Below are positions 18,565 through 63,224 of a DNA stretch of 64,000 nucleotides, in pieces. Both the position numbers and the translations under genes were made by a program. The DNA lies in the NCBI GenBank assembly GCA_003833135.1, contig QZLH01000150.1, forward strand, positions 20,685 to 84,684, read 5' to 3'. This DNA is from Oehlia diaphana (taxonomy: Eukaryota > Glomeromycota > Glomeromycetes > Glomerales > Glomeraceae). The notes under the pieces were generated by a model, which saw only the letters and a list, made by a program, of their open reading frames with translations, ran no database searches and was not told where the DNA came from. The first letter of the stretch is position 1. Each line of letters starts with the position of its first letter.

Positions 18565-19751
18565 TTATTGTTTAACAACCCTAAAAGCTTCCACTTCTTT
18601 AACAGCATAAGATGCATTCACTTGAAAATTTTCATAATACCCTTGATCGTTAAGATGTAAATTTTTGTCATTATCCATAGTCATGGATCCTCCGCCAAAA
18701 TTGAACGCGCAATCATAAAATTCATATAGAGCATAATTAGGACATGTTACTCTACTTATCTTCATATTTTCAATATCTCCATCATTCTCAAAGGAAAAGA
18801 TAAAACTATCGTATGTGTAATGCCATTGACTACCATTACAAAAATAAACTCCGATAGGACTGTAACCTCCGAATATTTTTGGTGAAGAATGAACACTGAC
18901 TAAAACTAAACATGGAAGTTGACGATAACAATTATTTTTAAAATTATCTGAACTAATATAATCGCGACTACTACGATATAGAAGATCAAATTTATATTTA
19001 TGGTTATTCTGGTTATTCTCACTACGTTGATAGTACATGTAATTACTGTAATTACAAGATTTAGATTTCTCTTCGATATAATTAATAATCGCTGAAGCAA
19101 GTTTTGGTTTTACAATTGTTGATTCAATATGGTTCGTTCCAATTCGTGGTGTTAAAATCATTGATTTTGGCAAGGTATTTTTTAAATAAAATTCCATCAT
19201 ACCTTCATAAATATTATCAGGTATAATAGCTTTGTATGGACGGATTTTATCAAAAAAATCTTTAGAATTAATGTATGTAAATCGAATTAGAGGAATGATT
19301 CCTTTCATTGTATTCTTTAAATCCTCATAATTTTTGTTAGTCCACTCATTCTGAGGTTTATCCTTCAATCCAGGTGTTTTCTTGATACCCCATTTAATCA
19401 AAGAATCCCAGACGGTAATTTCTTCAACCTGTAAGTCATCACGTTTAAGAAGTTCATGGAGAATTTCAGTATCTAATGATACGAAATTATTAGAAAAGAA
19501 AAATGGTAGTGGATGTACACAGATTAATCCAAGGCAATAACCAAGTAATTTTTTACAATTAATAAGTCTAAACACAGATTTTAAAATAAGAACAAAATTT
19601 TGTTGAACCCAAGTTATTTGTTTTTCAATTAAATAATCTTGTACATAATTAAATAATTCTTCAAGGAGCAATTCGTCAGATGAAATTAACAATTCAAGAT
19701 TAACTTCCCCAGAATTCACAGTTAAATCTACTTCTCCCGTATAAATATATC

Positions 19752-19806
<55 letters not shown>

Positions 19807-33727: not shown

Positions 33728-35248
33728 ATGGATACAAAATTTCACGACGAACTTGCACAAGATCTTTCGTTAATGTTAAATAATTCAGATGATTATAATG
33801 TAATTATTCAAGTTGGAGAAAATCATAATATGAAAGAATTTCGTATCCATTCAAATATCTTAAGAGCTCGTTCACCTTATTTCAAGAATGCACTTTCTAC
33901 ACTTTCGGGTAGGTCATCTAAAAGGAAGACTGATAATTCTAAAAGAAGTGACATTATTGAATTTAAAAAATCAAATATTAACCCTAATTCTTTCGAATTA
34001 ATTCTCAAGTACGTAGTTGAAGTTTTCTTATTTTTAATAAAGTCATTTTGTTATAATTAACATTTTTATTACAAATATAAAAGGTATATTTATACGGGTG
34101 AAGTGGATTTATCTAAACAATCAGGCGAAGATATTCTTGGAGTTTTAGTTGCATCAGATGAACTTCAACTCGGAAAATTATTTGATCACGTTCAAGATCA
34201 TTTAATTGAAAAACAATCAGTCTGGGTTAAACAAAATTATGTTCTTGTTCTTCATACAATTTTCAAATTATATAATTGTAACAAATTGCAGGATCATTGT
34301 ATTAAGTCTATCTGTGCAGACCCAAAACCATTTATTACTTCAGAAAATTTTCCATCTCTTGATAAAGATATTGTATATGAATTACTTAAACGTGACGATT
34401 TACAAATTGAAGAAATTGTTGCTTGGGATCATTTGATTAAATGGGGTATCGAACAAACTCCTGGCTTAGGAAGTAAGAATAACGATAGAGCTAAATGGAG
34501 CGACAGTAATTATAAAGCGTTAAAAAGAACGTTAAGTCATTTTATTCCTCTAATTCGATTTGTGGAAATTTCTCCTGCTGATTTTTATGATAAAGTTCGT
34601 CCCTATAAAGCTGTTATCCCTGAATATATTTATGAAGATATTACTGAATTCTATTATAAAAATACTTTACCAGAAGCCACTATATTACCGCCACGAAATG
34701 CTAAGGTCCGAATTGAATCAAAGCTTATTAAATTAAATCTTGCCGGTATAATTGCTGGCTGGATCGAAAGAAGAAATGAAAAAGAATTATCACACAAGTA
34801 CAATTTTGATCTTCTTTATCGTAGTAGCCAGGATGGGGTTAATACTAACACATTTCGAACTAAGTGTAATAATCAAGGTCCATGTTTAGTATTAGTCAAA
34901 CATCAACAATCAGCAAAAATATATGGAGGTTACAATCCACTTGGATTTATGCAATACGGTGGACAATGGTGTAATACAACTGAAAGTTTTATATTTTCTT
35001 TTGAAAATGGCAGAGATATTCAAAATATGAAAATAAGTCGTGTAAATAATGGCTATAATAATTATGCAATATACGAGGATTACAATCAGGGATTTAACTT
35101 TGGTAACGTATTTTATATGAATAATGATCAAATATATTTTAATAATAATGGCTATTATGATGGTAACATTAATAATGTTGGAAGTCCATACCTAAATAAT
35201 AATTTTGTTCCGGAGGAATTTGAAGTCTTTAAAATAACTACTTCGTGA
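33728..35248 (+). CDS. BTB-BACK-TLDc protein
   Basis: Exons 33728-34008 and 34084-35248, phase-2 intron of 75 bases inside LILK-YIYTGE; 481 aa. Start MDTKFHDELAQDLSLML chosen by family alignment; the upstream in-frame Met at 33662 would translate the poly(A) leader. BTB (15-130): YNVIIQVGENHNMKEFRIHS, LRARSPYFKNALS. BACK (about 140-265): LLKRDDLQIEEIVAWDHLIK, FIPLIRFVEISPADFYDKVR. TLDc (about 300-480): ESKLIKLNLAGIIAGW, YNFDLLYRSSQDG, GPCLVLVKHQ, KIYGGYNPLG, ESFIFSFENG, FNFGNVFYMN, EEFEVFKI. All three domains are full length. Its closest relative is the next gene downstream, in the same orientation, indicating tandem duplication. Confidence 0.92.
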
Positions 35249-35512
35249 TTCAATTAATTAAATGTAGTCAAAAAATAATTATATTATAATTTGTCCTTCA
35301 CAAAAATGTATTTTCCCACATGTACTGTGTACTACATAAATACAGTATTTTTTACAAGCATTCTCTTACATGATAATCATAAATAATATAGTGTAATGAT
35401 CATTTTGTGGGAAGATTACTATCGTAACGTCTAATTATGCAATTATTTCATCATATGATATATGTTGCTAAATTTTCTCATGATTATGAACAATTAAAAT
35501 TTTACCTCAATC

Positions 35513-35594
35513 TGACGTCAATAAAATGTGTAGCGTGTGATCTTCTTAATTCAGAAATTTTAATCAATTTAATCAATTAAGTGATATTTTTGTA

Positions 35595-35687
<93 letters not shown>

Positions 35688-35696
35688 AAAAAAAAG
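35513..35696 (+). promoter_or_regulatory. promoter element and long poly(A) leader
   Basis: TGACGTCAATAAAATG and GCGTGTGATCTTCTT (35513-35556) parallel the block before 33728. From about 35599 to 35694 the sequence is almost pure A, broken only by single T or TT, and ends 5 bases from the ATG. If transcribed it forms a poly(A) 5' leader. Confidence 0.45.
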
Positions 35697-36007
35697 ATGG
35701 ATTCAGAATTACACAAAGATCTTTTAAAAGATTTCTCGTCAATGTTGTATGATTCAGAAGATCATGATGTAATTATTCAAGTGGGAGATGATCATAATAC
35801 TAAAGATTTTCGAATACATTCAAATATTTTACGAGCTCGTTCTCCTTATTTCAGGAGTGAGCTTTCGACTAAATGGGGGAGCAATAATAGTAATAATTTT
35901 AAAAGAGGTCATACTACGATACTTAAAAAACCTCATATCAGTCCAAACGTTTTTGAAATAATTCTCAAGTAAGTAATTATTTAATATAAATGTAATTATT
36001 TATATGA

Positions 36008-36050
<43 letters not shown>

Positions 36051-37237
36051 TAAATCAATTTAATATAATTAGGTATATTTATACGGGTGAAGCTGATTTA
36101 TGTAAGAAAACTGGAGAAGATATTTTTGGAGTTTTGGTCACATCAGCTGAGTTTCTTCTCGAAAAATTATTTAATTATGTTCAAGATCATTTAATTAAAA
36201 AACAGACGATTTGGATAAAACAAAATTTCGCTTATGTATTTTATACAACTTTTAAACTTGAAAATTGCGAAAAATTGCAGGATTATTGTATGGAATGTAT
36301 GAGTGAAGATTCACAATTATTTACCTCAAAAAATTTTCCATCACTTGAAGAAGATATTCTTTATAACTTACTTAAACGAGACGACTTACAGATCGAAGAA
36401 ATTGTTGCTTGGGATTTTTTAATTAATTGGGGTATCGAACAAACTCCTGGTTTGGGAAGCGAAAATAACGATAGAACAAAATGGAGTGAAGATGATTACG
36501 AAGCATTAAAGGAAACTATAAGTCAATTTATTCCTCTTATTCGGTTTATGGATATTTCTCCCGCAGATTTTTACGATAAAGTTCGTCCTTATAAAGCTGC
36601 TATTCCTCTCCATATTTATGAAGAATTAGAAGAATTTTATTATAAAAAAACTTTGTCAAAAACTGAAATCTTACCGCCACGAATTGGAAAACTAAAAATT
36701 GAATCAAATCTTATAAATTCAAAACTAGCTAATATAATTGCTAGTTGGATCGATAAAAAAGATTTAAACAACATATCATCCAGTGAAAAGTACAATTTTG
36801 ATCTACTTTATCGTGGTAGCGAGGATGGAATTAATTCGAAGTCATTTCGTGTTAAATGTAATTACCGAGGTTCTTGCTTGGTATTAGTTAAAAAAAAAAA
36901 ATCAACAGAAATTTACGGAGGGTATAATCCAATTGGATTTACAAATTCTAATAGAAAATACCCTGCAAGTGATAGTTTTATATTTTCTTTCGAAAACGGG
37001 GAAGATAGTCATAATATGAAAATAAGTCGTGTGAATAGTAAATGTATTAATCGTGCGATATGCGAGCAACATAACAACGGATTTAATTTTGGCAATACAT
37101 TTTATTTTACGGGAGGTCATGTATTCTTTGGTAATTCCGATATTTACGATAATATAGGCAATATCTCAGAATTAAATATGAATCCTATACCAGAGGAAAT
37201 TGAAGTTTTTAAAGTAACGTGTGTAAAAAAAAAATAA
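35697..37237 (+). CDS. BTB-BACK-TLDc protein
   Basis: Exons 35697-35968 and 36073-37237; 478 aa. The ATG directly follows the poly(A) tract. BTB: HDVIIQVGDDHNTKDFRIHS, LRARSPYFRSELS. BACK: LLKRDDLQIEEIVAWDFLIN, FIPLIRFMDISPADFYDKVR. TLDc: ESNLINSKLANIIASW, YNFDLLYRGSEDG, GSCLVLVKKKK, EIYGGYNPIGFT, DSFIFSFENGED, FNFGNTFYFTGG, EEIEVFKV. The intron holds a T run of about 34 followed by an A run. A tandem paralogue of 33728 with both in the IYGGYNP subgroup. It converges with the minus-strand gene at 37367, about 130 bases away. Confidence 0.92.
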
Positions 37238-37366
37238 TTTTTTTTTATTATAGAAATGTTGTAAATAAAAGATCAAATTAAAAAATAAACTAATAAAAAT
37301 TATATCAATTTTCATGATTATTAAAGCCAAAATTTGTTGTTCCTGCCGTAAGTATAAGTTATAGAA

Positions 37367-38405
37367 TTAGTACGGATTCCATCTTACAGATCCTTTTATA
37401 GTCTTCATTGCAATTGGCATAAAAGGTTTTTTGGCTTCTATATTTTTCTTTAAAGGTCTTCTAACTCGCGGAGTCGAAATAATTGAAATTGGTGGTATAT
37501 CTTTCATGTAAAATTTCATGATTTCCTCGTAAACATTATGAGGAATAACAGCCTTATATGGACGAACGTTATCATAAAAATCAGCGCGGCTAATTTCTGA
37601 GAATCTGATGAGAGGTATAAATTGACTTATGGCTTTTTTTAAATCTTCGTAATCGGTCTCATTCCATTTCTCTCTATCGCTTTTCAACAATTGAATTTGA
37701 TTAATACCCCATTTGATTAAATAATTCCAAGCAATAACTTCATTAATATGCAAATCATCTCTTTTAAGTAATGAATAGAAAATATTCTTATCAAGTGATG
37801 GAAAATTTTTTGAAGAGAAGAATTGGTGTGGATCTTCACAGATGAGTGCAAGACAATGTTCTTGTAATTTCTTACAACTAACATATTTAAAAACTATATT
37901 AAAGACAAAATCAAAATTTTGTTTAATCCAATTCACTCGATTTTCAATTAAAAAATCTTGAATATATTTAAATAATTTCTCGAGAAGTAGTTCATCAGAA
38001 GCAATTAAAAGCTTGAAAATATCTGTTCCTGATTTCTCGGATAAATCCGCTTCGTCTGTATAAATATACCTTTTTATTTATAATGGAAAAGAATTAATTT
38101 TACTAACATTATTTTTTCTTTTTTTAACCTAATTAATACACAAAAAATCGTGCATACCTAAGAATTATTTCAAAAACGCCAGGATCAATATTTGGTTTTT
38201 TGTACTTAACCATGTCTTCGTTATTCCTTTTAGTAACCCATTTTTTCGAAAGTGCGATTTGAAAATAATTCGAACGAGCTCTCAATATATTAGAATGAGC
38301 ACGAAAGTCTCTTGTATTTTGATTTTCCCCAACTTGAATTATAACATTATGATCATCAGCATTAGTTAACATCAATGATAGGTCTTTTGAGATGCTATGT
38401 TCCAT
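37367..38405 (-). CDS. BTB-BACK protein lacking TLDc
   Basis: Exons 38405-38158 and 38069-37367; 316 aa, against 478-515 for most of the family. BTB: HNVIIQVGENQNTRDFRAHS, LRARSNYFQIALS; the junction codes R-YIYTDE. BACK: LLKRDDLHINEVIAWNYLIK, FIPLIRFSEISRADFYDNVR, PYKAVIPHNVYEEIMKFYMK. After STPRVRRP the similarity ends and an unrelated Lys/Pro-rich tail of about 25 residues (KKNIEAKKPFMPIAMK..) closes with a stop. No TLDc text follows in any frame before the next gene, so the domain was deleted. It may still work as a BTB-BACK adaptor, or be an early-stage pseudogene; the frame is intact. Confidence 0.8.
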
Positions 38406-46060: not shown

Positions 46061-47945
46061 TTACTTAGAACTGATTAGGAAAACTTCAATTTCCTTAGGA
46101 ACAAACATCTTTATATTTTGGTTTATAACATTCTTATCGTTATAGGCTGAATTGTTAACTTCTATGTCCGGACCATTCATACGAAAAACATTACTGAAAT
46201 TGAACTCATTTCCATAATTAAGTTCTAATTTATCATAATTCATACGACATATTTTCATATTTTTAATATCATCATCATTTGTAAAGGAAAATATAAAGTT
46301 TTCAATCGAATAACGCTGCCCATTATGCATATGTATATGTGATTGATATTCTCCATAAATTTTTGTTAAATCTTGCGCAAGTGATGGTTGATCTGTTACT
46401 GTTTGTCGAGGGGGATCAGACGTTTGCCAAAGAGAAATAGATGAATCACGACTTGATTCATCTAAAGTTGTACTCCAATTGGACCAGCTATCATTATTAT
46501 TAACAGAACCCCAGTTATCATTATTATTAACAGGACTCCAGCCATCATTATTATTAACAGGAACATTATTATTAGCAAGACCCCAGCCATCATTATTATC
46601 AGCAGGACCCCAGCCACCACCATCTGGATGAGAGGGAGGAAAACCCCAACCATCACTAACTGAAGTTGTATCTATTTGTGGGGAACGGCGTTTATTTTTT
46701 GTCCGATTTGGTTGAACATTCCAACTATCCAAACTATCCCAGCTATTATTAACGGGATTACAAGTATGAGATGTTTCTATTAATATTAAACGCGGACCCT
46801 TATGTTCACATTTATTACGCAATATATTTATATCGAGACCATCCCGACTACTGCGATAAAGTAGGTCTAATTTGTATTGCAAATCATTTCTACGACGAAT
46901 CGCTTTTGCATCTTTTCCCTCAATCCAATTAGCTATTATATATGCAAGTTCCGGTTTAATTATTTTTGATTCAATGTTTATCATGCCAATTCGTGGTGGC
47001 AGAGTAAATTTATTTGTACCTTTCATATAAAACTCAAAAACTTCTTCGTAAATGTGATTAGGAATAACGGCCTTAAATGGATAAACTTTATCATAAAAAT
47101 CAACGGAACTAATTTCTGAGAATCGAATAAGTGGAACAAATTGACTTAATGTTTCCTTTAATGCTTTATAATTCTCATCATTCCATTTGATTCTATCGCT
47201 ATTTTCATTTCCCAAACCGGGCGTTTGTTCAATACCCCATTTAATTAAATAATCCCACGCAATGACTTCCTCAATCAGAAAGTTATTTCGTTTAAGTAAT
47301 TCATAGAGAATAATTTTATCGAGAGATAGAAATTCTTTTGAAGTAATGAATGATTGTGGATCTGCTGATACAGATTCAATACAGTGATTTTGTAGTTTCT
47401 TGCAATTAGAAAGTGAGGAAACTCTACGAAAAACGTGAATAAGATTATGTTGCACCCAAGTTGTTCGATTTTCAATTAAAAAATCTTGAGCATATTCAAA
47501 CAATTCTTCAAGATGTAATTCGTCAGATGTAATTAACAATTCAAGAATATTTTTTTCTGGTTGTTCTGATAAATTCACTTCACCTATATAAGCATACCTT
47601 TATTTTATTAATTATAGAAGTAGAAAAAAAATTAAACCATAATGATATCATTTTTATAAAAATTTATTGAGGCTAGTATATTACTTACTTGAGAATAATC
47701 TTGAAAACACTTGGAATAATATTTGATTTTTTAATCTCAATCTTTTTATTGATCAAGTCATTTGATACGTTTGATAATACAGCTTTGAAATATTTTGAAC
47801 GAGCTCTAAGAATATTAGAATGTGCACGAAATTCTACTATATCTTGATTTTCTCCAACTTGAATAAGAACGTCATGATCATCTGCATCATCTAACATTGA
47901 CGAAAAATCTTGTAAAAGATTTGAATAGTTCTCAAAAGTTTCCAT
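46061..47945 (-). CDS. BTB-BACK-TLDc protein with WG-repeat insert
   Basis: Exons 47945-47689 and 47597-46061; 597 aa, about 100 longer than its relatives. BTB: HDVLIQVGENQDIVEFRAHS, LRARSKYFKAVLS; junction K-YAYIGE. BACK: LLKRNNFLIEEVIAWDYLIK, FVPLIRFSEISSVDFYDKVY. TLDc: ESKIIKPELAYIIANW, YKLDLLYRSSRDG, then after GPRLILIE an insert of about 130 residues (about 365-495) before LTKIYGEYQSHI, ENFIFSFTNDDD, EIEVFLIS. The insert is rich in Trp, Gly, Asn and Asp with a 9-residue VNNNDGWxP-type repeat and ten Trp residues, several as WG or GW. It sits where paralogues carry a short variable loop, so the TLDc fold may be kept with an exposed disordered loop. First of three tandem minus-strand genes. 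Confidence 0.9.
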
Positions 47946-48682
47946 CTTTTTTTTTAAAAACAGATATAACATTAACAGATAGGAATATATATAAAATGAT
48001 GTTCTGAAATCAGATGATTTTCATATCGGAATTAGTCTTTTTAAGAGTAACAAACGCATTTGTAGATCATCTGATTTGTGAAAAACAAAAGCAACAAAAG
48101 CAACAATTGCAATTTTGCAATTGTAAATTTTCAGCTCGTGACCATGGCTTTTAGATCGGATTTTACATACAATCGGCATTTCAAAGTAGTCTCTAACTTT
48201 CAATAAAGAGAATTCTAGAAGCTTAGCGTTCCACTTAATTGTTTATTTAACATTTTGACGTATCCCATTTTTCAAAAAATATAAAATTTAATAAACATAT
48301 ACATTTAAATCCCCCTAAATTTAAATTACGATTTTCTGAAATTTTCTGAAATTTCCCAAATTTTCAAATTTTTCCAAAAATTTCAAAATTTTATTGTTTA
48401 TTTCCAAACAATAACGACTTTCACGTCATCCATCGAAAAATTAAATATCAGAGTTATTTCTGTTTAATTATTTAATGCATCGTGAATTTTTCCTAATGTT
48501 TCTAATACAAAGATCCAATTTTATTGAATAGAAAACTATATTTTATTATGTACAGTAATCATGTAACAAAAAAAAAACAATAAATATTAACTTTAATTAT
48601 ACAATAAAAATCTTGTTATTAATAATATTAATAATCTTAATAATCAATAATTCATTATATACTATATATATATTATTCGGAG
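47946..48682. other. intergenic between tandem BTB genes
   Basis: Upstream flank of one gene and 3' flank of the next. The segment 48230-48400 (GCGTTCCACTTAATTG, ACATTTAAATCCCCC, TTTCTGAAATTT) is reminiscent of MITE family 1 but too decayed to define ends. No exon. Confidence 0.4.
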
Positions 48683-50314
48683 TCAATTAGAAATTATTTC
48701 AAAAACTTCAATCTCCTCAGGAACAGGCATAAGCATACGCTTCAATACATTATCATCATTATAATACGAATTGTCAATATATAAGTACTGCCGATCTATT
48801 TCAAAAGCAAAACCGAAACATAACTTCTTATAATTACTGGTATTATAAGTTATATCATGATAATTCATGCGACATATTTTCATGTCTTTAGTATCATTGT
48901 CATTTGCAAAAGAAAATATAAAGTTTTCAGTTGTAGCTTTCCAAACGCTATCCACTTTACCGGAATAATATTCTCCATATATTTTTGTCGAAATTTGCGA
49001 AAGTGTTTTTTGAGAACCAGGATTATCCCAATTTGTTGACTGAGCATTTCTAGAGGTAAGAGACATTCTTCGTTGAGAAGATTGAGAAGTAATATTCCGA
49101 TTTAAATGTCTATCAAATTCATTCGATTTCGGTTTGATCAAGATAAAACACGGGCCATGATTTTTACATTTAAAACGAAATGAATTAATATGAAGACTAT
49201 CATTACTACTGCGATAAAGAAGGTTGAATTTATATTGTGAATTCCTACTACGAATAGCTGTTGCATCTTTTTTTTCAATCCAATTAGCTATTATATATGC
49301 AAGTTTTGGTTTAATTATTTTTGATTTAATGTCTATCATTCCAACTCGTGGTGGTAAAATAATTGTATCCGTTGGTAAAATGCGCATATGAAATTTCATA
49401 ATTTCTTCGTAAATATTACGAGGAATAATGGCTTCAAATGGACGAATTTTATCAAGAAAATCATCAGCACTAATTTCTGTGAATCGAATAAGAGGAATAA
49501 ACCGACTTAAGGTTCTCTTTAGTGCTTCATAATTTTCATTATTCCACTCTGATCTATCTCTGTTCCTACTTTCCAAACAGGGAGTTTGTTCAATGCCCCA
49601 TTTAATTAAATAATCCCAAACAATAGCTTCCTCAATTAGAAAGTCATCCCTTTTAAGTAACTCATAAAGTACATCCTCATCAAGTGATAAACTTTCTTTT
49701 GAAAAGTTTAATGATTGTAATTCAGCTGAGGCAGATTTAACACAATGATCCTGCAGTTTCTTGCAATTGATAAGTGTAAAAACCGTATGAAGAACGAGAA
49801 AAAGTTCTTCTCGAACTAAAGTTGGTCGAATATTAATTAAACAATCTTGAGCATTATCAAGTAATTCATCAAGGAGTAATTCATCACATGCAACTATCAA
49901 TTGAAGAATATAATCAACTGATTTTTCCCTTAAATTAAATTCACCTGTATAAATATACCTTTTATTTATTATTATAAAATGAGAAAAAAAAAACTATTAT
50001 TTAATCTTAATAAATATATGCAATAATTATATTATAAGACATATTGTTGTTACTTACTCGAGAATTGTTTCGAAAGCGGTAGGGTTAATATTCGGTTTTT
50101 TAAACTCAATGATATCATTTTTTTTAATAATCCAACCGTCTGAAAATGCGATTTTGAAATACTCTGAACGAGCTCTAAGGATATTTGAATGCGCACGAAG
50201 TTCTTTTCTGTTTTGATTTTCTCCAACTTGAATAATGACATCATGATCCTTTGCATCAGTTAACATGTTTGAAAGGTCTCTATAGAAATTTGGATATAAT
50301 TCTATAGATTTCAT
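48683..50314 (-). CDS. BTB-BACK-TLDc protein
   Basis: Exons 50314-50058 and 49958-48683; 510 aa. Start MKSIELYPNFYRDLSNML fits the family; an upstream in-frame Met at 50467 would add unrelated sequence. BTB: HDVIIQVGENQNRKELRAHS, LRARSEYFKIAFS; junction E-YIYTGE. BACK: LLKRDDFLIEEAIVWDYLIK, FIPLIRFTEISADDFLDKIR, PFEAIIPRNIYEEIMKFHM. TLDc: SKIIKPKLAYIIANWIEKKD, YKFNLLYRSSNDS, GPCFILIKP, a polar insert of about 50 residues rich in Ser, Arg and Asn, then KIYGEYYSGK, ENFIFSFANDND, EEIEVFEI. Intron of 99 bases. Middle gene of a three-gene head-to-tail array, closest to its neighbours on both sides. Confidence 0.92.
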
Positions 50315-50825
50315 TTTGTTTTCAAACACGTATATACAGTATACAACGTTAGTGGATGAAATATAGTAAAAAATTGGGTGGAAAAAAATTAAATTAGATC
50401 TTTCCGGTGTCCAAGGATTTTTATGTGCAATAAATATTATATTTCTAAAAAAAGAAAACAAATGCAAGTTTATTTATTTGTACGTTTTTTGAATTATTAT
50501 TTTTTTTTTTTACTGCGATTCCTAAAGGAGTTACAATTTTCCCTTATAGTGTAAATGACAATAACTTTTGCTAATTAAGATCGTCAAAAGAATACGCAGT
50601 TTAAGTTTCACATTTACGTGATGCTAAATTTTGTGGCACAGTAGAATCGGTAAGCATTGAAGTGAATAGGATAAAGCATTCACTGTTCATTATTTTATTA
50701 TAAAATCACATCAAATAAAAAATCATAAAATTATAACGTTCGGTAATATACAATTATCATTTGTGTAATAACATAATAAATATAATAATAATAACTGATA
50801 ATTTATTTATTTAAAAATAAACGAA
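50315..50825. other. intergenic between tandem BTB genes
   Basis: AT-rich. GATGCTAAATTTTGTGGCAC near 50620 is the only less AT-rich patch. No exon. Confidence 0.4.
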
Positions 50826-52367
50826 TTACTTATTTTTGTATACAATAAAGATTTCAACTTCCTTTGGAACAAAATTTTCATTCTTCCATACAACGTTACC
50901 ATTACAATAGTCCGACATTTTAACATGAACATTTTGACCACTTGAATCATTAAAGGAATTAAAGGAAATAGAATCGTTTATATTCCGACTTATTTTCGTG
51001 TTTTTAACATTATCATTTTCAAAAGAAAATATAAATCTTTCATTATGAGGTATAAACGAATAGTATTCCCCATAAATTTTTTTAAAATCTTGCGAGATTT
51101 TTTCTTGAGAAACAACATTTCGACTTTTTTGTTGAAAAGTATTATTAGTATTTTGTCTTTGGTTGACCAATATTAAATGTGGATCTCGATTATCTTTACA
51201 CCGATCACGAACTCTATTAATTGCCATAATGTTAGTACCGTGCCACCCACTGAAGTATAAACGTTTGAAATTGTATTTTAAATCACTTTTGTTACGAATA
51301 GCTTTTTCATCTTTTCTGTCGATCCAATTGGCTATTATAAAAGCATGTTTTGGTTTAATAATTTTTGATTCGATATCTATCATTCCAACTCGTGGCGGCA
51401 AAGTAGTTATACCTTCTGATAAAGTGCCCTTCATATAATATTTTAAAACTTCTTCGTAAATATTACGAGGAATAATGGCTTCAAATGGGCGAATTTTATC
51501 AAAAAAATCATCAGAACTAATTTCTGAGAATCGAATAAGAGGGATAAATTTTTCTAACTTTTCTTTTAACGCTTCACAATTTTCATTATTCCATTTGGTT
51601 TTATCCCCATTTTCACTTCCCAAACCGGTAGTTTGTTCAATAACCCATTTAATTAAATAATCCCAGATAACAATTTCTTCTACCTGCAAGTCATCTCGTT
51701 TTAGCAATTCAAAGAGAATATCCTCATCAAGTGATAGAAAATCTTTTGAAGTAATGAATATTTGCGGATCTTCTACGATAAATTTAATGCAATAATCTCG
51801 CAGTTTCTTACATTCAGGAATTTTGGAGACCGTATGAAGAACGAAGACGAGATTTTGTTGAATCCAACGTAATTGATAATTAATCATACAATTTTCAAGA
51901 TATATGAGAATATCATTGAAAAGCAACTCTTTAAATGCAACAATCAATCCAAGAATATCTTCACCAGATTCATCTGTTAGGCGGATTTTACCCGTATAAA
52001 TGTACCTTTATTCATTAGTTAAAGAAGAAAAAAGTTAAGTTATAATAACAAAATTATAATAAAGGAAGATACGAAAATCTTATTATTATATTACTTACTT
52101 GAGAATTATATCGAAAATATCAGGGCTAATATTTGGTTTTTTAAACTCAATCAAATTATTCTTTTTTGCAATCCAATTTTCTGATAACGCAGTTTTGAAA
52201 TATTTTGAACGAGCTCTAAGGATATTTGAATGTGCACGAAATTCTTTTATATTTTGGTTTTTTCCAACTTGAATAGTAACATCATAATCATCTGCATTGT
52301 TTAACATTAATAAAATGTCTCGTAGAAGTCCTTCATAAAATTTTTTCACAGCAATTTTTCCACTCAT
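50826..52367 (-). CDS. BTB-BACK-TLDc protein
   Basis: Exons 52367-52099 and 52005-50826; 482 aa. BTB: YDVTIQVGKNQNIKEFRAHS, LRARSKYFKTALS; junction K-YIYTGK. BACK: LLKRDDLQVEEIVIWDYLIK, FIPLIRFSEISSDDFFDKIR, PFEAIIPRNIYEEVLKYYMK. TLDc: ESKIIKPKHAFIIANWIDRK, YNFKRLYFSGWHG, RDPHLILVNQ, a short polar insert, KIYGEYYSFI, RFIFSFENDN, KEVEIFIV. The TLDc core is more divergent than in the two neighbours (YFSGWHG instead of YRSSxDG, and a missing FNFG block), so its activity may differ. Divergent from the + strand gene at 53533 across about 1.2 kb. Confidence 0.9.
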
Positions 52368-52499
52368 TTTTTTCTTTAAAAAAAAAATTTTACATGTATT
52401 ACGTTAATGAAAAGTTGAATATTTATAGGAGATTTAGGAGATTTAATTTAATCAACAAAAGCAGTAGATCATGAAAATGATACTACAAAAAAAGCTCGG
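52368..52499 (-). promoter_or_regulatory. A/T-rich leader of BTB gene
   Basis: On the minus strand the sequence just before the ATG reads as a T run then an A run (AAAAAAA at 52379-52389 on +). The pattern resembles leaders of the other BTB genes. Nothing more specific is seen. Confidence 0.25.
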
Positions 52500-52640
52500 G
52501 CACGTGACCGTGAAAATATTCGTCACATTGTCACACCTCCGGCCGAGTTTCACTGTTTATATATACTGTATCTGGGTGACTTAGTTTTTTTCGAGTAAGT
52601 AAAAATTTATTCGTCACGCCCTTATTCGTCACTGTATATT
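52500..52640. repeat. CACCGGTCACGTG-type dispersed repeat, copy 3
   Basis: CACGTGACCGTG, TTCGTCACATTGTCACACC, GTTTCACTGTTTATATATAC, TTTATTCGTCACGCCC and TTATTCGTCACTG relate to the copies at 12180, 20437 and 55765. It starts about 130 bases upstream of a BTB gene start codon. Confidence 0.5.
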
Positions 52641-53532
52641 ACACGTGTTAGTGCATAACGCCGTAATGCGGGCCAAACCCGAGCTTTTTTTGATGGCGTA
52701 GCTGGGGGAGTTTTGTCATCTATTTGAGTCATGTGATCTTAATGCCTGAGCAGAGACGTTACACTTTAGCCTAGATTCAAATGACATAGTACACATAAGT
52801 TAAAATCATAATGATGAAAACTATAGCTATCTTTGCGGAGTCAAATTATTCATCAACATATGCAACAATTCGAACGGCCATAATTATGATTATGATACAC
52901 ACAACAATATTACAAAGCGGATTTGGAGATTTGTATTCATATTGTGCCTATTGTGATGTTAATTTTAAGGTTGTTATGAGTAATATGAGTAAATTAAAGT
53001 TTTTGTCCCATTTATTTTTATGATACGTATTGACGTTATAAAATTTGACTTTCAGCCACTACATTCTGACCATAAAAGTATATTTATTAATAAGTAACCT
53101 ACAATTCATCATACTTTCCGACATAAATTAACTGGGCCACATGGTGAATATAATGTTACGTGTTGTCGATTAAAAATTACCAACGCTATAAAAGTGATTA
53201 TCATTATAAAAAAATTAATTAATTATTTAATTCAAAGAACAAAAGCAAATGCCATAAAAAAGTTACAAAAAGAAGTAAATAAATAAATAGTAAATCATTC
53301 TGATTTTTTATTATGATCATCAAAATAAAATGAATGACTTAGGTAACACGACCTTTCAAAAGGAATTGTAAATCCGGTGTAATTGTTGTAATTGTTTTTA
53401 TTCCTAATTTCTAATTATTTTAAGATTTTAAATATTTATAAAAATTCAAGTCGATGTCAAAAAAAAAAAAAAAAAATTTCTTTTTTTACTTCCATCATAA
53501 TTATCATTAATATACTGTATATATATATAAAG
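52641..53532. other. intergenic, divergent gene spacer
   Basis: An open frame of 70 codons at 52811-53023 includes YCAYCDVNFKVVMSNMSKLK, faintly like a zinc-finger fragment, but it lacks support. An A run precedes the next gene (53458-53476). Confidence 0.35.
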
Positions 53533-53816
53533 ATGTCTATAAAACTTCATAAAGTTCTTTTAAGAGACTTTTCATCAATGTTAAAATATTCAAATGATTA
53601 TGATACTATTATTCAAGTCGGAGAAAATCAAAATATGAAAGAATTTTTTGTACACTCAATTATTCTTAAAGCTCGTTCAACCTATTTTAGAAGAGCATTA
53701 TCAGATGAATGGATCATCAAAAAGAATAATATGTTCGAATTTAAGAAACCAAATATTGATCCTGCTGTATTCGAAATGATTCTCAAGTAAGAGATATAAT
53801 TTTAAATTATTTCACA

Positions 53817-53851
<35 letters not shown>

Positions 53852-55124
53852 TTAACATACTTTTTCCTTCATACAAAGTTATATTTATAGTGGTGATTTA
53901 AAATTAATCAAATCAGGCGGATTTATTTTTAAGCTGTTAATTGCATCTGACGAATTGCTTTTTGAAGAATTATTTTATCCACTACAATATTTTTTAATTA
54001 ATGAACGATCGTTTTGGATTCGAGATGAACTTATTTTCGTTCTCAATACGGTTTTCGTACTCCCTAATTGTAATGTGGTACAGGATTTTTGTATGGAGAT
54101 CTTAAGGAACCAAGAATATTTCATGAACTCAAAAAATTTTCCATTACTCAAAAAGGATACTTTATTTGAATTACTTAAACGAGATGATTTTTTAGGAGAT
54201 GAAGCTATTGTTTGGGATTGTTTAATTAAATGGAGTATTGAACAAACTCCCAGTTTGAAAAACAAAAATAGGAATAGATGGAATAAAGATGATTTTAAAG
54301 CATTAAAAGAAATATTTAGTCAATTTATTCCTTTTATTCGATTCTTAGAAATTAGTTCTGCAGACTTTTTTGATAAAATTCGACCATTTAAGGCTATTAT
54401 TCCTAACAATATTTATAAGAAATGTATAAAGTTTTATATGAAAGGTAGTTTGCCAGAAAATATAAATATTTTACCACCACGAATTGGAAAGTTAAATATT
54501 AAATCAAAAATTATTAAGCCGGAACATGCTTATGTAATAGCTAATTGGATTGAAAGAAAAAATGCAAAAGATGTTCGAAACGAAAATAATTTGCAATACA
54601 GATTTAACTTAATTTATTCTAGTAGTAGGGACGGTTTCAATGTTTGTACATTTCGTCGTAAATGTATGAACAAAGGTCCTTGCTTATTATTGATCAAACC
54701 GGATCCGGATGCACCTGATTCTGTACGACCAATTGCAAGTTTACAGCAAAATTTGGCAAAAATTTATGGAGAATATTATTCAGGTATATTTACACAAGAC
54801 ATATGGGAATGTAAATCTAAAAATTTTATATTTTCTTTTGCAAATGATAATGATATTAAAAATTCGAAAATTACTCGCATGAACTGTAAATCTGATACTG
54901 TAATAAATAGATGTGGAAAAGGTTTAGATCCTAGTATTACTTTTCACATGAAAAATCGAAATATTTATGTTAATAATTTTTTCTATAATGATGATAATGT
55001 TATAAATGCAGATATAAAGCAATTTGTTTCAATGGAAATTGAGGTTTTTTTAGTTTCAGATGGCCAATATAAAACGACCAGAGAATTTAGAAGATCAAGA
55101 AATATTACTCCGTGGGAGATGTAA
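53533..55124 (+). CDS. BTB-BACK-TLDc protein
   Basis: Exons 53533-53786 and 53879-55124; 499 aa. Start MSIKLHKVLLRDFSSML is shared with the gene at 57257; the upstream in-frame Met at 53392 would add a hydrophobic leader unlike any relative. BTB: YDTIIQVGENQNMKEFFVHS, LKARSTYFRRALS. The acceptor is AAAG-T, giving N-YIYSGD. BACK: LLKRDDFLGDEAIVWDCLIK, FIPFIRFLEISSADFFDKIR. TLDc: IIKPEHAYVIANWIERKN, YRFNLIYSSSRDG, GPCLLLIKPD, KIYGEYYSGIF, KNFIFSFANDND, MEIEVFLV. A charged tail of about 24 residues (TTREFRRSRNITPWEM at the end) extends beyond the TLDc domain. A 31-base A run lies in the intron. Confidence 0.9.
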
Positions 55125-55394
55125 CTAAATTTTATTTATTTGATTACTACAAGTATAAAAATAATAGTATTTTTGGATTTCGATAGTTTATAATTTTTTT
55201 TTTTTTTTTTATGATAGTAATTTATTAAAATTTTATTATTATAAATATTTTTGTTTCTTATTTATTATATCCATTAAAAAAGAATATATATTTATTATTA
55301 AATAAATTTATCCGATTTTTTTATAATTACTCCACCGGTATAAAGTATAAAAAAGTATAAAATCCATTGGTGTATACGTGAATATTTCAGTTAT
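55125..55394. other. intergenic
   Basis: AT-rich 3' flank with T run; no feature. Confidence 0.4.
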
Positions 55395-55745
55395 TCATTG
55401 ATACCCATGAAATAATACCATATACTTCATCAGATGATTTACTTAGTCCTAAATCACCTGTTGTCGTACCAGAGTCGTACCAATATAACAAAAATATTTT
55501 TACTATGATAATCTTTATGAATTATTTCTGAATCATGTATATATCTAAGTCCAAGTGCAGTTCCATATAATTTACCTAATTTCTCTTTCCAAGTAATATT
55601 AAAAAAATTATTTAGTAATATAATGTGTAAGATCTCCTAACTCGTAATATTTTGTGATTATCATAAAATTTTGTGTAATGGAATGTTGATTGATTCCATA
55701 ATACTCATTGACATTAGGAGATGTATATTTTAAATTAATATTATA
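55395..55745 (-). pseudogene. kinase relic with HKDYHSKN loop
   Basis: Minus strand reads NVNEYYGINQHSITQNFMII, KYYELGDLTHYI, a stop, FFNITWKEKLGKLYGTALGL, RYIHDSEIIHKDYHSKNIF, a frame change, then LGLSKSSDEVYGIISW. This is the stretch from the middle of a kinase N-lobe to just before APE. The catalytic loop has HKD instead of HRD. The sequence differs clearly from the kinases at 1257, 7468 and 30282, so it comes from a different subfamily. Glycine loop and C-lobe are missing. Confidence 0.75.
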
Positions 55746-55764
55746 AAATATTTTGATCATAACC

Positions 55765-55870
55765 GGCATCACGCTTCACTGTTTATATTTATCTGAGGGA
55801 CGCCTCCCAAAATTACTTTTTCGCATCCCTTAAATGTCACCGGTCACGTGAGATAGAATTTTAGATGATG
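55765..55870. repeat. CACCGGTCACGTG dispersed repeat, copy 4
   Basis: GGCATCACGCTTCACTG, TTTATATTTATCTGAGGGAC, TTTTTCGCATCCC, TTAAATGTCACCGGTCACGT and GATAGAATTTTA: the cleanest copy, nearly matching 20437-20545 throughout. Confidence 0.65.
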
Positions 55871-57256
55871 CAATCGATATAATTATGTGTTATTTGTACG
55901 TAATAAAAAAATTTAAATCATACTATTAACATACTAACTTACAAAATTCCCTCAAGGTTAGTATTAGGGGTTAGGTTAGGGTTAGAGGTGCAAACTTTAC
56001 CGATGTAACTGCGGTTAGAGATTAGGTTTATTTATCACAAGTCACAACGTATCACACTCCACTGTCTTCATTTTGTTAATTAGGGGGCTTAGAAATTAAA
56101 AATCCTATCTGTCACCTTTATTCGTCACGGGAAGAATTTCCCTCCGGCTAAAAATTAATAAAAAGCTTAAGATGGAGGTCTGGGCCTTGGATCTTCAAAA
56201 AAAAATTTTCTTCAGTCGAATAAACATGCCACAAATTATAATTTATAAGTAATTCTATCGAAAATTATTTCTTTGAAAGCCAATATGACTAGGACCACAT
56301 TTAAGATACTTGAAGCGGTTAACAATACCATGTTACATTGTTACAAATTGCGCACAAAATATTTGAACAAAATCAGCCAAATTATCATATTACAAATTAA
56401 CAGTTAAGCTCAAGATAGTTAGTTACTATGCAAAAATGCAAAATGTGTAGTAAAGATCTTGTTACCAAGTACGTTTGGTAATTATGGTATCATTATATGA
56501 ATTTTGGGATAAATGTTACTAATAATTTAATGATCTAATATTGCTCTATAATTCACGTGTTTATTTCGTTAAAATTATATCATTAGAAAAATTAATGAAG
56601 TCAAACTATCAGTAATTTTATTGATTTTAATATCGATGCTAATATGCTATGTATATCAATAATCATATTATTTTCGTTTTGTTGTGACGCAAAAAATGAT
56701 TTTAGATCAATTATTGGAATTTTATTATGAATTGCAAAATAGTGAAAAGTTTATGTTCAAATTGAATATGATTAAAGCTAAAATTGTTTACGTATTAAAT
56801 TTATAAAATTTCGATTTTTCTATAAAGATCAACCACATATAAAGTTTATTAACTTATATTGTTAGTTTTTTTATTTTATTTTTCATGCTAATTTTTCAGT
56901 ATCACACTACTTTTGGAAAGGAAAATTTTTTTTAGCGATCAGTCCAATTATTGAAAATAGATCACATGTCTGAATAAAAGCTAGATTTATCGGCTATTCC
57001 TTAATCCAAAGTTCCACAGTTTATTAGTGATGTATGTTTGCCTTGAATATAATAATTTAGATAATTAACGCGTCGTGTGCGTCGTGTCACTGGTCGATTA
57101 CGCGGTAGACGTTGTGTAACCTTTATCTCTATATATTCTGATCGCAATAATATTTATTTTTTTTTTTTTTTTTACTCTATTTTCTCTATTTTTTTCATTA
57201 CACAACTTTTATCGATATCCTTAAATACGTATACTCTACATAATAATTTTAAAAAG
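55871..57256. other. intergenic; short telomere-like text
   Basis: 55963-55987 reads TTAGGGGTTAGGTTAGGGTT, resembling TTAGGG telomere repeats but only three units long. The rest is AT-rich without exons; just before the next gene is GCGTCGTGTGCGTCGTGTCA near 57069 and a T run. Confidence 0.4.
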
Positions 57257-58837
57257 ATGTCTATAAATCTTCATGACGTTCTTTTAAGAGACTTTTCATC
57301 AATGTTAAAAGATTCAAATGATCATGATGCTATTATTAAAGTTGGAGAAAATTCAAATATGAAAGAATTTTTTGCACACTCAAGTATCCTTAAAGCTCGT
57401 TCAAATTATTTTAGAAGAGCATTATCTATCGAATGGACTACTAAAAAAGATAATATGATTGAGTTTAAAAAACCAAATATTGATCCTGCTGTATTCGAAA
57501 TAATTCTCAAGTAAGAGTTATAATAATTTAATAATTTTAAAATTTTTAACAATAAAAAAAAAAAATGTTAACATAATTTTTTTTTTTTTACCTTATTTCA
57601 ATTAAGTTATATTTATAAAGGTGAAGTAGAATTAATGGATCAATCAGGCGAACTTATTTTTGAATTATTAATTGCAACTGATGAATTACTTCTTGAAGAA
57701 TTATTTTATAAATTACAAGATTATTTAATTAAAAAACAATCAAATTGGATTCAAGATAATCTTATTTCCGTTTTAAATACGGTTTTTACACTTCCTAATT
57801 GTAATGTGGTCCAAGATTATTGTATGGAGATCTTAAAGGACTCAAAATATTTCATGAAATCTGAAGATTTTCCATTACTCAAAAAGAATATTCTATGTGA
57901 ATTAATTAAACGAGATGATTTTTTAGGTGATGAAGTTGTTGTTTGGGATTGTTTAATTAAATGGAGTATTGAAAAAATTCCCAGTTTGAGAAGTAAAAAT
58001 AAGGATAAATCCAATTGGAATGATGATTTTGAAGCATTAAAAGAAACATTTAGTCAATTTATTCCTTTTATTCGATTCTCTGAAATTAGTTCTGCAGACT
58101 TTTTTGATAAAGTTCGTCCATTTAAGGCTATTATTCCTAACAATATTTATGAAGAATTTATAGAATTTCATATGAAAGGTACTTTACCAGTAAATTCAGC
58201 TATTTCACCACCACGAATCGCAAAGTTAGATATTGAATCAAAAATTATTAAACCGGTACATGCTCATGTAATAGCTAATTGGATTGAAGGAAAAGATGCA
58301 AAGGCTATTCGCAATAAAAATGACTTGCGATACAATTTCAATTTACTTTATTCTGGTAGAAATGACGGTTTTGATGTTAGGAAATTTCGTAGTAAATGTA
58401 TGAATAAAGGTCCTTGTTTAATATTGATCAAACCATCAACAAATAATTTGACTCAATCAACAAGTGAGAATAATCTTGATACTTGTAATACGCGATCAGT
58501 ATCAAGTCCATTACCTACGCAAAATTTGGCGAAAATCTATGGGGAATATTATTCAGGTATATTTACAAAAGACATTTGGGACTGTACAACTGAAAATTTT
58601 ATATTTTCTTTTGAAAATGATACTGATATTAAAAATATGAAAATATGTCGTATGAATTATAATATTATATTAGATAAATCTTGTGGTGATTTTGATCCTA
58701 CTAATACTTTTCGTATGAAAGGTCAAAATATATCTGTTAATAATTTGGCCTATAATGATAATAACGTCATAAATTCAAATATGACGAAATTTGTTCCAAT
58801 GGAAATTGAAGTTTTTAGGACAACATGCGATATTTAA
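57257..58837 (+). CDS. BTB-BACK-TLDc protein
   Basis: Exons 57257-57510 and 57607-58837; 494 aa. Start MSINLHDVLLRDFSSML. BTB: HDAIIKVGENSNMKEFFAHS, LKARSNYFRRALS; junction N-YIYKGE. BACK: LIKRDDFLGDEVVVWDCLIK, FIPFIRFSEISSADFFDKVR. TLDc: IIKPVHAHVIANWIEGKD, YNFNLLYSGRNDG, GPCLILIKPS, a short Asn/Ser/Thr insert, KIYGEYYSGIF, ENFIFSFENDTD, MEIEVFRT. The two exons equal those of 53533 closely (exon 1 is 254 bases in both), showing tandem duplication. An upstream in-frame Met at 57077 lies in T-run-containing leader sequence and is unlikely. Confidence 0.92.
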
Positions 58838-62462: not shown

Positions 62463-62840
62463 ATCAGGGGGGAAAGGGATAACGAAAGGGAAGGGGAAAA
62501 CGAGAGGGATAGGGGAATACGAAAGGGAAAGGGAGAACGAAATCGAAAGGGGATTAGGGAAACGAAAGGGAAAGGGAAAGGAAAGGAAAGGGAAAGGGAA
62601 AACGAGAGGGAAAGGGGAGGGGAAACTGAGAGGGAAAGGGGAAACAAAGAGAAAGGGGAGAACGAAGGGAAAGGGAAAGGGAAAGGGGAAAACGAAAGGG
62701 AAAGGGAAACTGAGAGAGAAAGGGAAAACGAAAGGGAAAGGGAAGGGGGAAACTGAGAGGGAAAGGGAAACGAAAGAGAAAGGGGAGAACGAAAGGGAAT
62801 AATACCGAAAGGGAAAGGGAAGACGAAAGGGAAAGGGCAA
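62463..62840. repeat. polypurine GGGAAA-type tract
   Basis: About 380 bases almost free of C and T on the + strand, made of GGGAAA, GGGAAAACGA and GAGAGGGAAAGG units. Long open frames on both strands encode only Arg/Glu/Lys/Gly or Phe/Pro/Ser/Leu repeats and are artefacts. Such purine-pyrimidine strand asymmetry can form triplex DNA. Confidence 0.9.
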
Positions 62841-63224
62841 GAAAATGTACAAACATAACACCACCCACACACAAACCTACACACAACAACCCACATACCT
62901 AAAGGAAACGTAAAAAAAAAGGAGCCGAGAAGACCTAGACAGAGGAAAAACAGTAAAAACAGACCTAAAAAAAAAAAAATACTTAAAAAGAAATATATAT
63001 TCATAACAAAACCCACATCAAGACTATGTGTTACAACTTACAATTATTAATTGCATATTTGCATGAGTAATTTTTTTCGTGTAAGTAACTTTTATTATGA
63101 CTGAGTAATTATATTTAGTTTATTATATTTACTTATATATTACACTAGGAAATGGGAAACCGTTCAAGGGTTTATTGCAAGGGTGCGTGAGTGGATAATA
63201 TTACAATCGTCTAGTGCATAATTA
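62841..63224. other. intergenic
   Basis: ACACAAC-rich text at 62860-62900 and then AT-rich sequence; no gene. Confidence 0.35.

Follow-up and report, generated by a model that had tools for sequence, protein, structure and literature searches.

A tryptophan-rich acidic loop within the TLDc domain of an Oehlia diaphana BTB-BACK-TLDc protein: a candidate docking arm

A gene for a BTB-BACK-TLDc protein is found on the minus strand of a 64,000-nucleotide stretch of DNA from the glomeromycete Oehlia diaphana (contig QZLH01000150.1 of assembly GCA_003833135.1, positions 20,685 to 84,684; "the window" below). Its TLDc domain is split by a long acidic loop rich in tryptophan (Trp), and Trp and acidity are kept in relatives while the rest of the loop drifts. 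With a probability of roughly 0.5, this loop is a multivalent docking arm that presents Trp motifs to a partner protein, and we infer that the Trp are its binding residues.

The gene product would be a scaffold from a large family that has expanded in Rhizophagus. One clade of that family would have lengthened a tight turn, located between two strands of TLDc before [FY]GGY (here YGEY), to a long loop, disordered in this protein. In the orthologous group of the window gene the loop would then have become an acidic platform carrying many short Trp motifs, approximately D-[GS]-W-[GD]-[ST], mostly 8-16 residues apart and partly renewed by minisatellite expansion. The folded BTB-BACK-TLDc body would position the arm, and single Trp side chains would enter pockets of the partner. 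Such a member would show how a new interaction surface can emerge from a turn of a folded domain. The available portions of PMC8647823 and PMC6399891 count BTB/POZ, Kelch-like and Argonaute (PIWI-domain) genes among the families that have expanded in R. irregularis. The literature searched, available in part, yielded no function for the R. irregularis BTB-TLDc proteins, and the listings returned by the searches contained no paper about TLDc proteins with a Trp-rich loop.

The loop and its family

The first half of the TLDc domain (46778-46987, minus strand) ends in the strand ...LILI, and the second half (46070-46363) begins KIYGEY, as placed by the AlphaFold2 strand at residues 414-419 with the strands after it and by a structural match. 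The domain can be followed across the loop in two ways: the Pfam TLD match bridges it (exon 2 residues 209-449, E 9.3e-7), and a structural match to the TLDc fold extends across residues 205-510. An insert inside TLDc had been proposed in a sequence-only reading of this DNA, and its position is borne out by both matches; its size is larger than was claimed, 138 amino acids (46777-46364), with ten Trp and a net charge of -10. The same reading described a Trp/Gly-rich disordered insert in a BTB-TLDc protein, which agrees with the domains found and with the AlphaFold2 model, where residues 285-407, between the two strands, are predicted to be disordered (predicted local distance difference test, pLDDT, below 50). 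In the TLDc regulators of the vacuolar ATPase (Oxr1, NCOA7 and mEAK7), a short turn occupies this position.

The Trp are confined to a part of the loop 105 amino acids long (46427-46741, minus strand). About ten had been claimed for it, and translation gives exactly 10; eight overlapping GW/WG dipeptides involve five of them. Chance composition can be rejected as an explanation, since the runner-up 105-residue stretch among the 40 stop-to-stop open reading frames (ORFs) of at least 105 amino acids, in all six frames of the window, has only 4 Trp. Successive Trp are separated by 6, 25, 12, 9, 15, 9, 9, 3 and 16 residues. The nine-residue VNNNDGW-type repeat that had been noticed corresponds to a tandem array with a 27-bp unit (46484-46616, minus strand), one Trp in most units, and the array spans only part of the Trp-rich stretch. 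A search of the 108.8-Mb assembly with E up to 1 gave no second copy of the insert, and a search with E up to 10 gave no match of the insert to any Pfam family.

The family itself is large. The genome has 107 exon-level matches, of which 62 ORFs were aligned with 120 database proteins (the best 120 of 336), for a total of 182; a profile search (its best 120 of 363) added 31 to give 213. Left out were L046 and L047, which have in-frame stops, and 19 further places whose largest open frames measure 470 and 461 amino acids. The 213 sequences include near-duplicates (e.g., L012/P0016 and L015/P0047) and shortened models such as P0116, which has no loop residues. Loop lengths in this alignment fall into two groups with nothing between them: 187 proteins have at most 7 residues and no Trp, and 26 have at least 17. 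In a tree of the conserved core (179 sequences, with P0116, P0018 and P0049 excluded), 25 long-loop proteins lie within one clade of 26 tips with a support of 0.999. The remaining tip, P0103, has a loop of 5 residues, stands beside P0088, and is probably a faulty model. Five members of the clade occur in the window cluster, with loops of 138 (this gene), 50 (48686-49993), 34 (L012), 28 (L015) and 21 (L032) residues coexisting there and further lengths present in sister species. Judged from alignment and tree, the expanded loop is a property of the whole TLDc clade, the four other cluster genes included. Compared with the BTB-BACK-TLDc (Kelch-like) family of Rhizophagus, the window gene has the same domains and the same habit of clustering. 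It differs in that the segment before [FY]GGY is 138 amino acids long and Trp-rich, where the family mostly has 5-6, and in the change of GGY to GEY, which is found throughout the long-loop clade.

Tryptophan and acidity in relatives

The number of loop Trp varies among the long-loop proteins. The window protein (Q) and R. irregularis P0001 each have 10, and 9 are found in P0002, P0003 and P0018, also from R. irregularis; P0018 is a fused model with pieces of both the Trp-loop gene and its adjacent paralogue. Seven of the genome's 62 family ORFs agree to at least 99.4% with proteins bearing the name Rhizophagus diaphanus, and proteins named R. irregularis reach 98.7% at best. The DNA thus most likely belongs to R. 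diaphanus rather than R. irregularis, and these four R. irregularis proteins are most likely sister-species copies. R. clarus P0004 has 9 Trp, P0005 (JGI) and P0006 from Glomus (Rhizophagus) cerebriforme 6 each, P0007 5, and P0017 and P0010 3 each; the remaining 15 long loops have 0 or 1. The net charge of the loop is -8 to -11 in the Trp-rich copies (P0007, P0017 and P0010 not counted). One group with a support of 1.0 in the tree unites Q with P0001-P0003, P0004 and P0005. Both Trp and acidity are kept in R. diaphanus/R. irregularis, in R. clarus and in P0005, all three being firm lineages. R. cerebriforme P0006 may be a fourth, its orthology being unsure.

Around these residues the loop has changed. 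Linkers and repeat units drift among the R. irregularis, R. clarus and P0005 copies; the units are of the VNNNDGW type in the window and of the GGWGPNYNG type in R. clarus, and the R. irregularis copies vary in unit number. Between Q and P0004 the non-Trp loop identity is 0.58 (core 0.77), and 7 of the 9 aligned Trp are identical, with one more gapped. Between Q and P0005 the corresponding identities are 0.53 and 0.78, and all 6 aligned Trp are identical, with four more gapped. With gapped positions excluded, a Fisher test of Trp versus non-Trp identity gives P 0.002 when three dependent pairs are pooled, and P 0.03 for Q-P0005. Conserved Trp with drifting linkers was what the sequence-only reading had named as a sign of function, and sister-species copies do present that pattern; retention alone is compatible with neutral drift.

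The immediate neighbours of the Trp are only partly constant. For 46 Trp in 11 loops, position -2 is D in 19, position -1 is G or S in 33, position +1 is G or D in 28 and position +2 is S or T in 21, and a glycine (Gly) neighbour is found for 22. Individual loops differ in this last respect: Trp with a Gly neighbour number 5 of 10 in Q, 6 of 9 in P0004, 3 of 6 in P0005, 1 of 6 in P0006 and 0 of 5 in P0007. The earlier emphasis on WG/GW holds for half of the Trp in the window, but the dipeptide is not kept in P0006 or P0007. From these alignments, the kept element is Trp within an acidic, small-residue setting, with Gly frequent there but not itself kept.

Neutral evolution of the loop was modeled with a stationary guanine-plus-cytosine (GC) content of 0.27, a threefold weight on transitions and no insertions or deletions; the P0006 distance, scaled from core identity, was about 210 changes. 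None of 600 runs reproduced Trp density, acidity and low hydrophobicity jointly for P0004, P0005 or P0006 (90, 110 and 130 changes), and at 110-260 changes the four settings run for P0006 each gave 0 of 600 again. Taken singly, the charge of P0004 or P0005 was matched in 0-3 of 600 runs, their hydrophobicity in none of 600, and the Trp density of P0004 in 1-4 of 600. We take these bulk properties to mean that selection acts on the loop's character, and the case for the Trp themselves is weaker than that for acidity.

Several observations weigh against a docking arm. Taken pair by pair, the Fisher test is not significant for Q-P0004 (P 0.31) or P0004-P0005 (P 0.08). In a neutral model with stop avoidance, at a non-Trp identity of 0.55, a mean of 0.64 of the Trp is kept in both descendants, and retention reaches at least 0.8 in 22% and at least 0.9 in 8% of runs. 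Trp conservation alone was therefore rejected as proof of function. The Trp density of P0005, taken alone, was matched in 58-133 of 600 neutral runs, and drift is rejected mainly by acidity and low hydrophobicity, both of which may be required of an exposed loop on other grounds. Because the array is a minisatellite, duplication accounts for some of the Trp. P0007 (5 Trp) and P0017 (3 Trp) belong to another subclade. P0006 pairs with its own neighbour P0023 (0.942), a protein from an R. cerebriforme contig of equal length, and not with Q, so it was rejected as a plain orthologue, and its Trp-rich loop may reflect shared descent, gene conversion or parallel gain. The drift test on P0004 and P0005 stands without P0006, so the status of P0006 leaves the odds as they are.

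One rival explanation is neutral or near-neutral growth of a minisatellite in a permissive surface loop, with Trp as a by-product of unit duplication. This explanation would account for the 27-bp array, its varying copy number among relatives, the faster change of the loop than of the core, the 15 of 26 long loops with at most one Trp, the high neutral retention under stop avoidance and the P0005 density. Two things speak against it: Trp also lie outside the array (DSW at the start, SLW/NLW near the end) in positions common to R. clarus and P0005, and the joint match of density, acidity and low hydrophobicity was never obtained, in any setting of a model free of indels and run at one stationary GC. 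On balance we regard it as rather unlikely.

Candidate partners of the loop

Argonaute was the partner first suggested, from the WG/GW dipeptides and from an expansion of RNA interference (RNAi) genes. Argonaute-type genes are indeed many, with 85 exon-level Piwi matches in this genome, and 40 AGO-like genes are reported for R. irregularis in the accessible part of PMC6399891. A loop acting as an Argonaute hook would also fit the predicted disorder, the acidic setting rich in N, D, G, S and P, Trp pairs at least 10 residues apart and the WG/GW at five of the 10 window Trp. Hooks are described in such terms, including at least two Trp about 10 or more residues apart, in the portions of PMC9262622 and PMC10991848 that could be consulted. 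With the known hooks (GW182/TNRC6, NRPE1, SPT5L, SPT6L and Tas3) the loop shares disorder, here predicted, low hydrophobicity, and repeated Trp often beside Gly; variable repeats with kept Trp are found on both sides (PMC10991848, in part). Unlike them, it lies within a folded domain, is strongly acidic and does not consistently have Gly beside Trp.

The Ago_hook profile PF10427, which was built on animal proteins, had no match in the genome; it was equally silent in 14 control genomes, so this result is uninformative. The Trp pockets of Argonaute were compared in eight fragments (L061-L068) from the 85 Piwi matches. Positions F587, V591, F653, Y654, F659, L694, E695 and Y698 were taken to belong to the pockets. 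To these were added P590, K660 and R688, given as pocket mutants in the part of PMC11336974 available, and C691 and P700, given as pocket positions in that of PMC9262622. Fragments L065-L068 keep most pocket residues: F653, Y654, K660, C691, L694, Y698 and P700 in all four and P590 in three, with Lys in place of R688 in three; against human proteins, the L066 PIWI part scores 370 bits with AGO3 and 361 bits with AGO2. Against this, none of the eight fragments keeps F587 or F659, V591 is changed in L065-L068, and L061-L064 lose P590 (E, K or D), F653 (Tyr), Y654 (Cys), L694 (Phe) and E695 (R or Q), though they keep C691, Y698 and P700. As compared here, a hook could fit one Argonaute class, that of L065-L068. 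In fungi the TRP3 pocket is distinctly conserved, and the Trp sites overall are still variable, according to the portion of PMC12477606 at hand.

A specific link to Argonaute is not supported: the dipeptide is not kept in P0006 or P0007, the pockets are conserved only in part, the insert is silent in Pfam, and the gene has no other RNAi-linked feature. That the loop is an Argonaute hook is distinctly unlikely. The fuller version is quite improbable: here a TLDc turn would have become the hook, and a BTB-BACK-TLDc scaffold would hold small-RNA complexes by means of 6-10 Trp that minisatellite slippage renews, in a lineage with dozens of Argonaute-type genes. Were the partner nonetheless Argonaute, two expanded families would be linked, and this would to our knowledge be the first known hook of such architecture. 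Should BTB-BACK recruit a cullin as well, the protein would serve a ubiquitin ligase as its dedicated Argonaute receptor. In animals, a CUL3 ligase acting on Argonaute uses ZSWIM8, which is not of the BTB type (PMC13083262, in part).

Two side observations concern the Argonaute genes. Several Piwi-domain genes or fragments, some with in-frame stops, are closely spaced on one contig (G000:C192:33825-49663). Some PIWI catalytic residues are altered: in L064 and L068, D597 is S and H807 is L or R, and D669 is N in L064 and L065. These changes suggest that L064, L065 and L068 are non-slicing members.

A CUL3 ubiquitin-ligase receptor, in which BTB-BACK binds the cullin and the Trp loop captures a substrate, is very doubtful. 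Cullin-family genes are present in the genome, and BACK and the end of BTB resemble adaptors of the KLHL11/KBTBD2 type by fold. In place of the Kelch propeller of those adaptors there is a TLDc domain here, and the canonical contact motif is not kept. That motif is phi-x-E, FSE in KLHL11; the site reads SND in P0001 and the window and LPD in P0004, and the reading was lowered because of this. Across the family, 85 of the 98 members examined have Trp at the site, mostly followed by [IV]-[TS]. This Trp, at the first position of phi-x-E in the BTB domain, is absent from the Trp-loop proteins P0001, P0004 and P0006.

The partner could also be close at hand. BTB domains of the protein and of its adjacent paralogue (48686-49993, minus strand) would pair, and the acidic Trp loop would touch the basic loop of the paralogue. 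Those loops are indeed basic (+5 in the window, P0011 +3, P0008 +9, P0010 +9, P0023 +8) beside Trp-rich partners at -8 to -11. The two genes look adjacent in R. clarus (00330040/41) and R. cerebriforme (740944/45), P0005 and P0010 are on JGI contigs both sized 28406, and the P0018 model fuses pieces of both genes. However, adjacency in other species is read from locus numbers and contig sizes only, tandem clustering is a habit of the family anyway, and charge contrast alone is no proof of contact; the pairing is highly unlikely. A W-acidic motif of the kinesin-light-chain kind and a transcription activation domain were also weighed as readings of the loop but not adopted.

The gene and its surroundings

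Two minus-strand exons (47945-47689 and 47597-46061) make up the gene and encode 597 amino acids; the spliced coding sequence has 598 codons with the stop and no internal stop. Its domain order, BTB, BACK, TLDc, is that of the family. Exon 1 (47689-47945) has the start codon and most of BTB/POZ (Pfam BTB, E 1.5e-8 on 47945-47685), and the N-terminus is that of P0001 apart from a few substitutions. The predicted intron of 91 bp (47598-47688, GTAAGT...AAAG) is supported by the splice, which gives the ...IILKYAYIGE... of P0001. Exon 2 (46061-47597), defined by its ORF, Pfam and AlphaFold2, contains the end of BTB, the BACK domain (Pfam match, 47234-47428), the loop-split TLDc and the stop codon. 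The best database match of the gene is R. irregularis P0001 with 92% (among the best 120 of 336).

Models of two R. irregularis copies are shorter before the loop. P0003 (DAOM 197198) and P0002 share an acceptor directly 5' of it (YMK|ETSH and SRD|ETSH), and the shorter piece they skip corresponds to an in-frame 63-nucleotide GT...AG stretch that is present in the window too (46839-46777). The splicing before the loop in these models may be alternative splicing or an annotation error. A true structure lacking part of TLDc was set aside because P0001, P0004, P0018 and the window protein have kept GPRLILI or GPCLILI ahead of the loop.

Upstream is the adjacent paralogue, a BACK-TLDc exon (48686-49993, minus strand) whose loop of 50 amino acids (49135-48986) has one Trp and a charge of +5. 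The window contains a cluster of nine or more BTB-BACK-TLDc genes or fragments, located on both strands (18577-19752, 34082-38071 and 46061-58819), with measured loops of 6-138 amino acids. A G/A-rich array of 372 bp with a period of 6/18 (GGGAAA type) is found at 62470-62841 and is the longest tandem array listed for the window.
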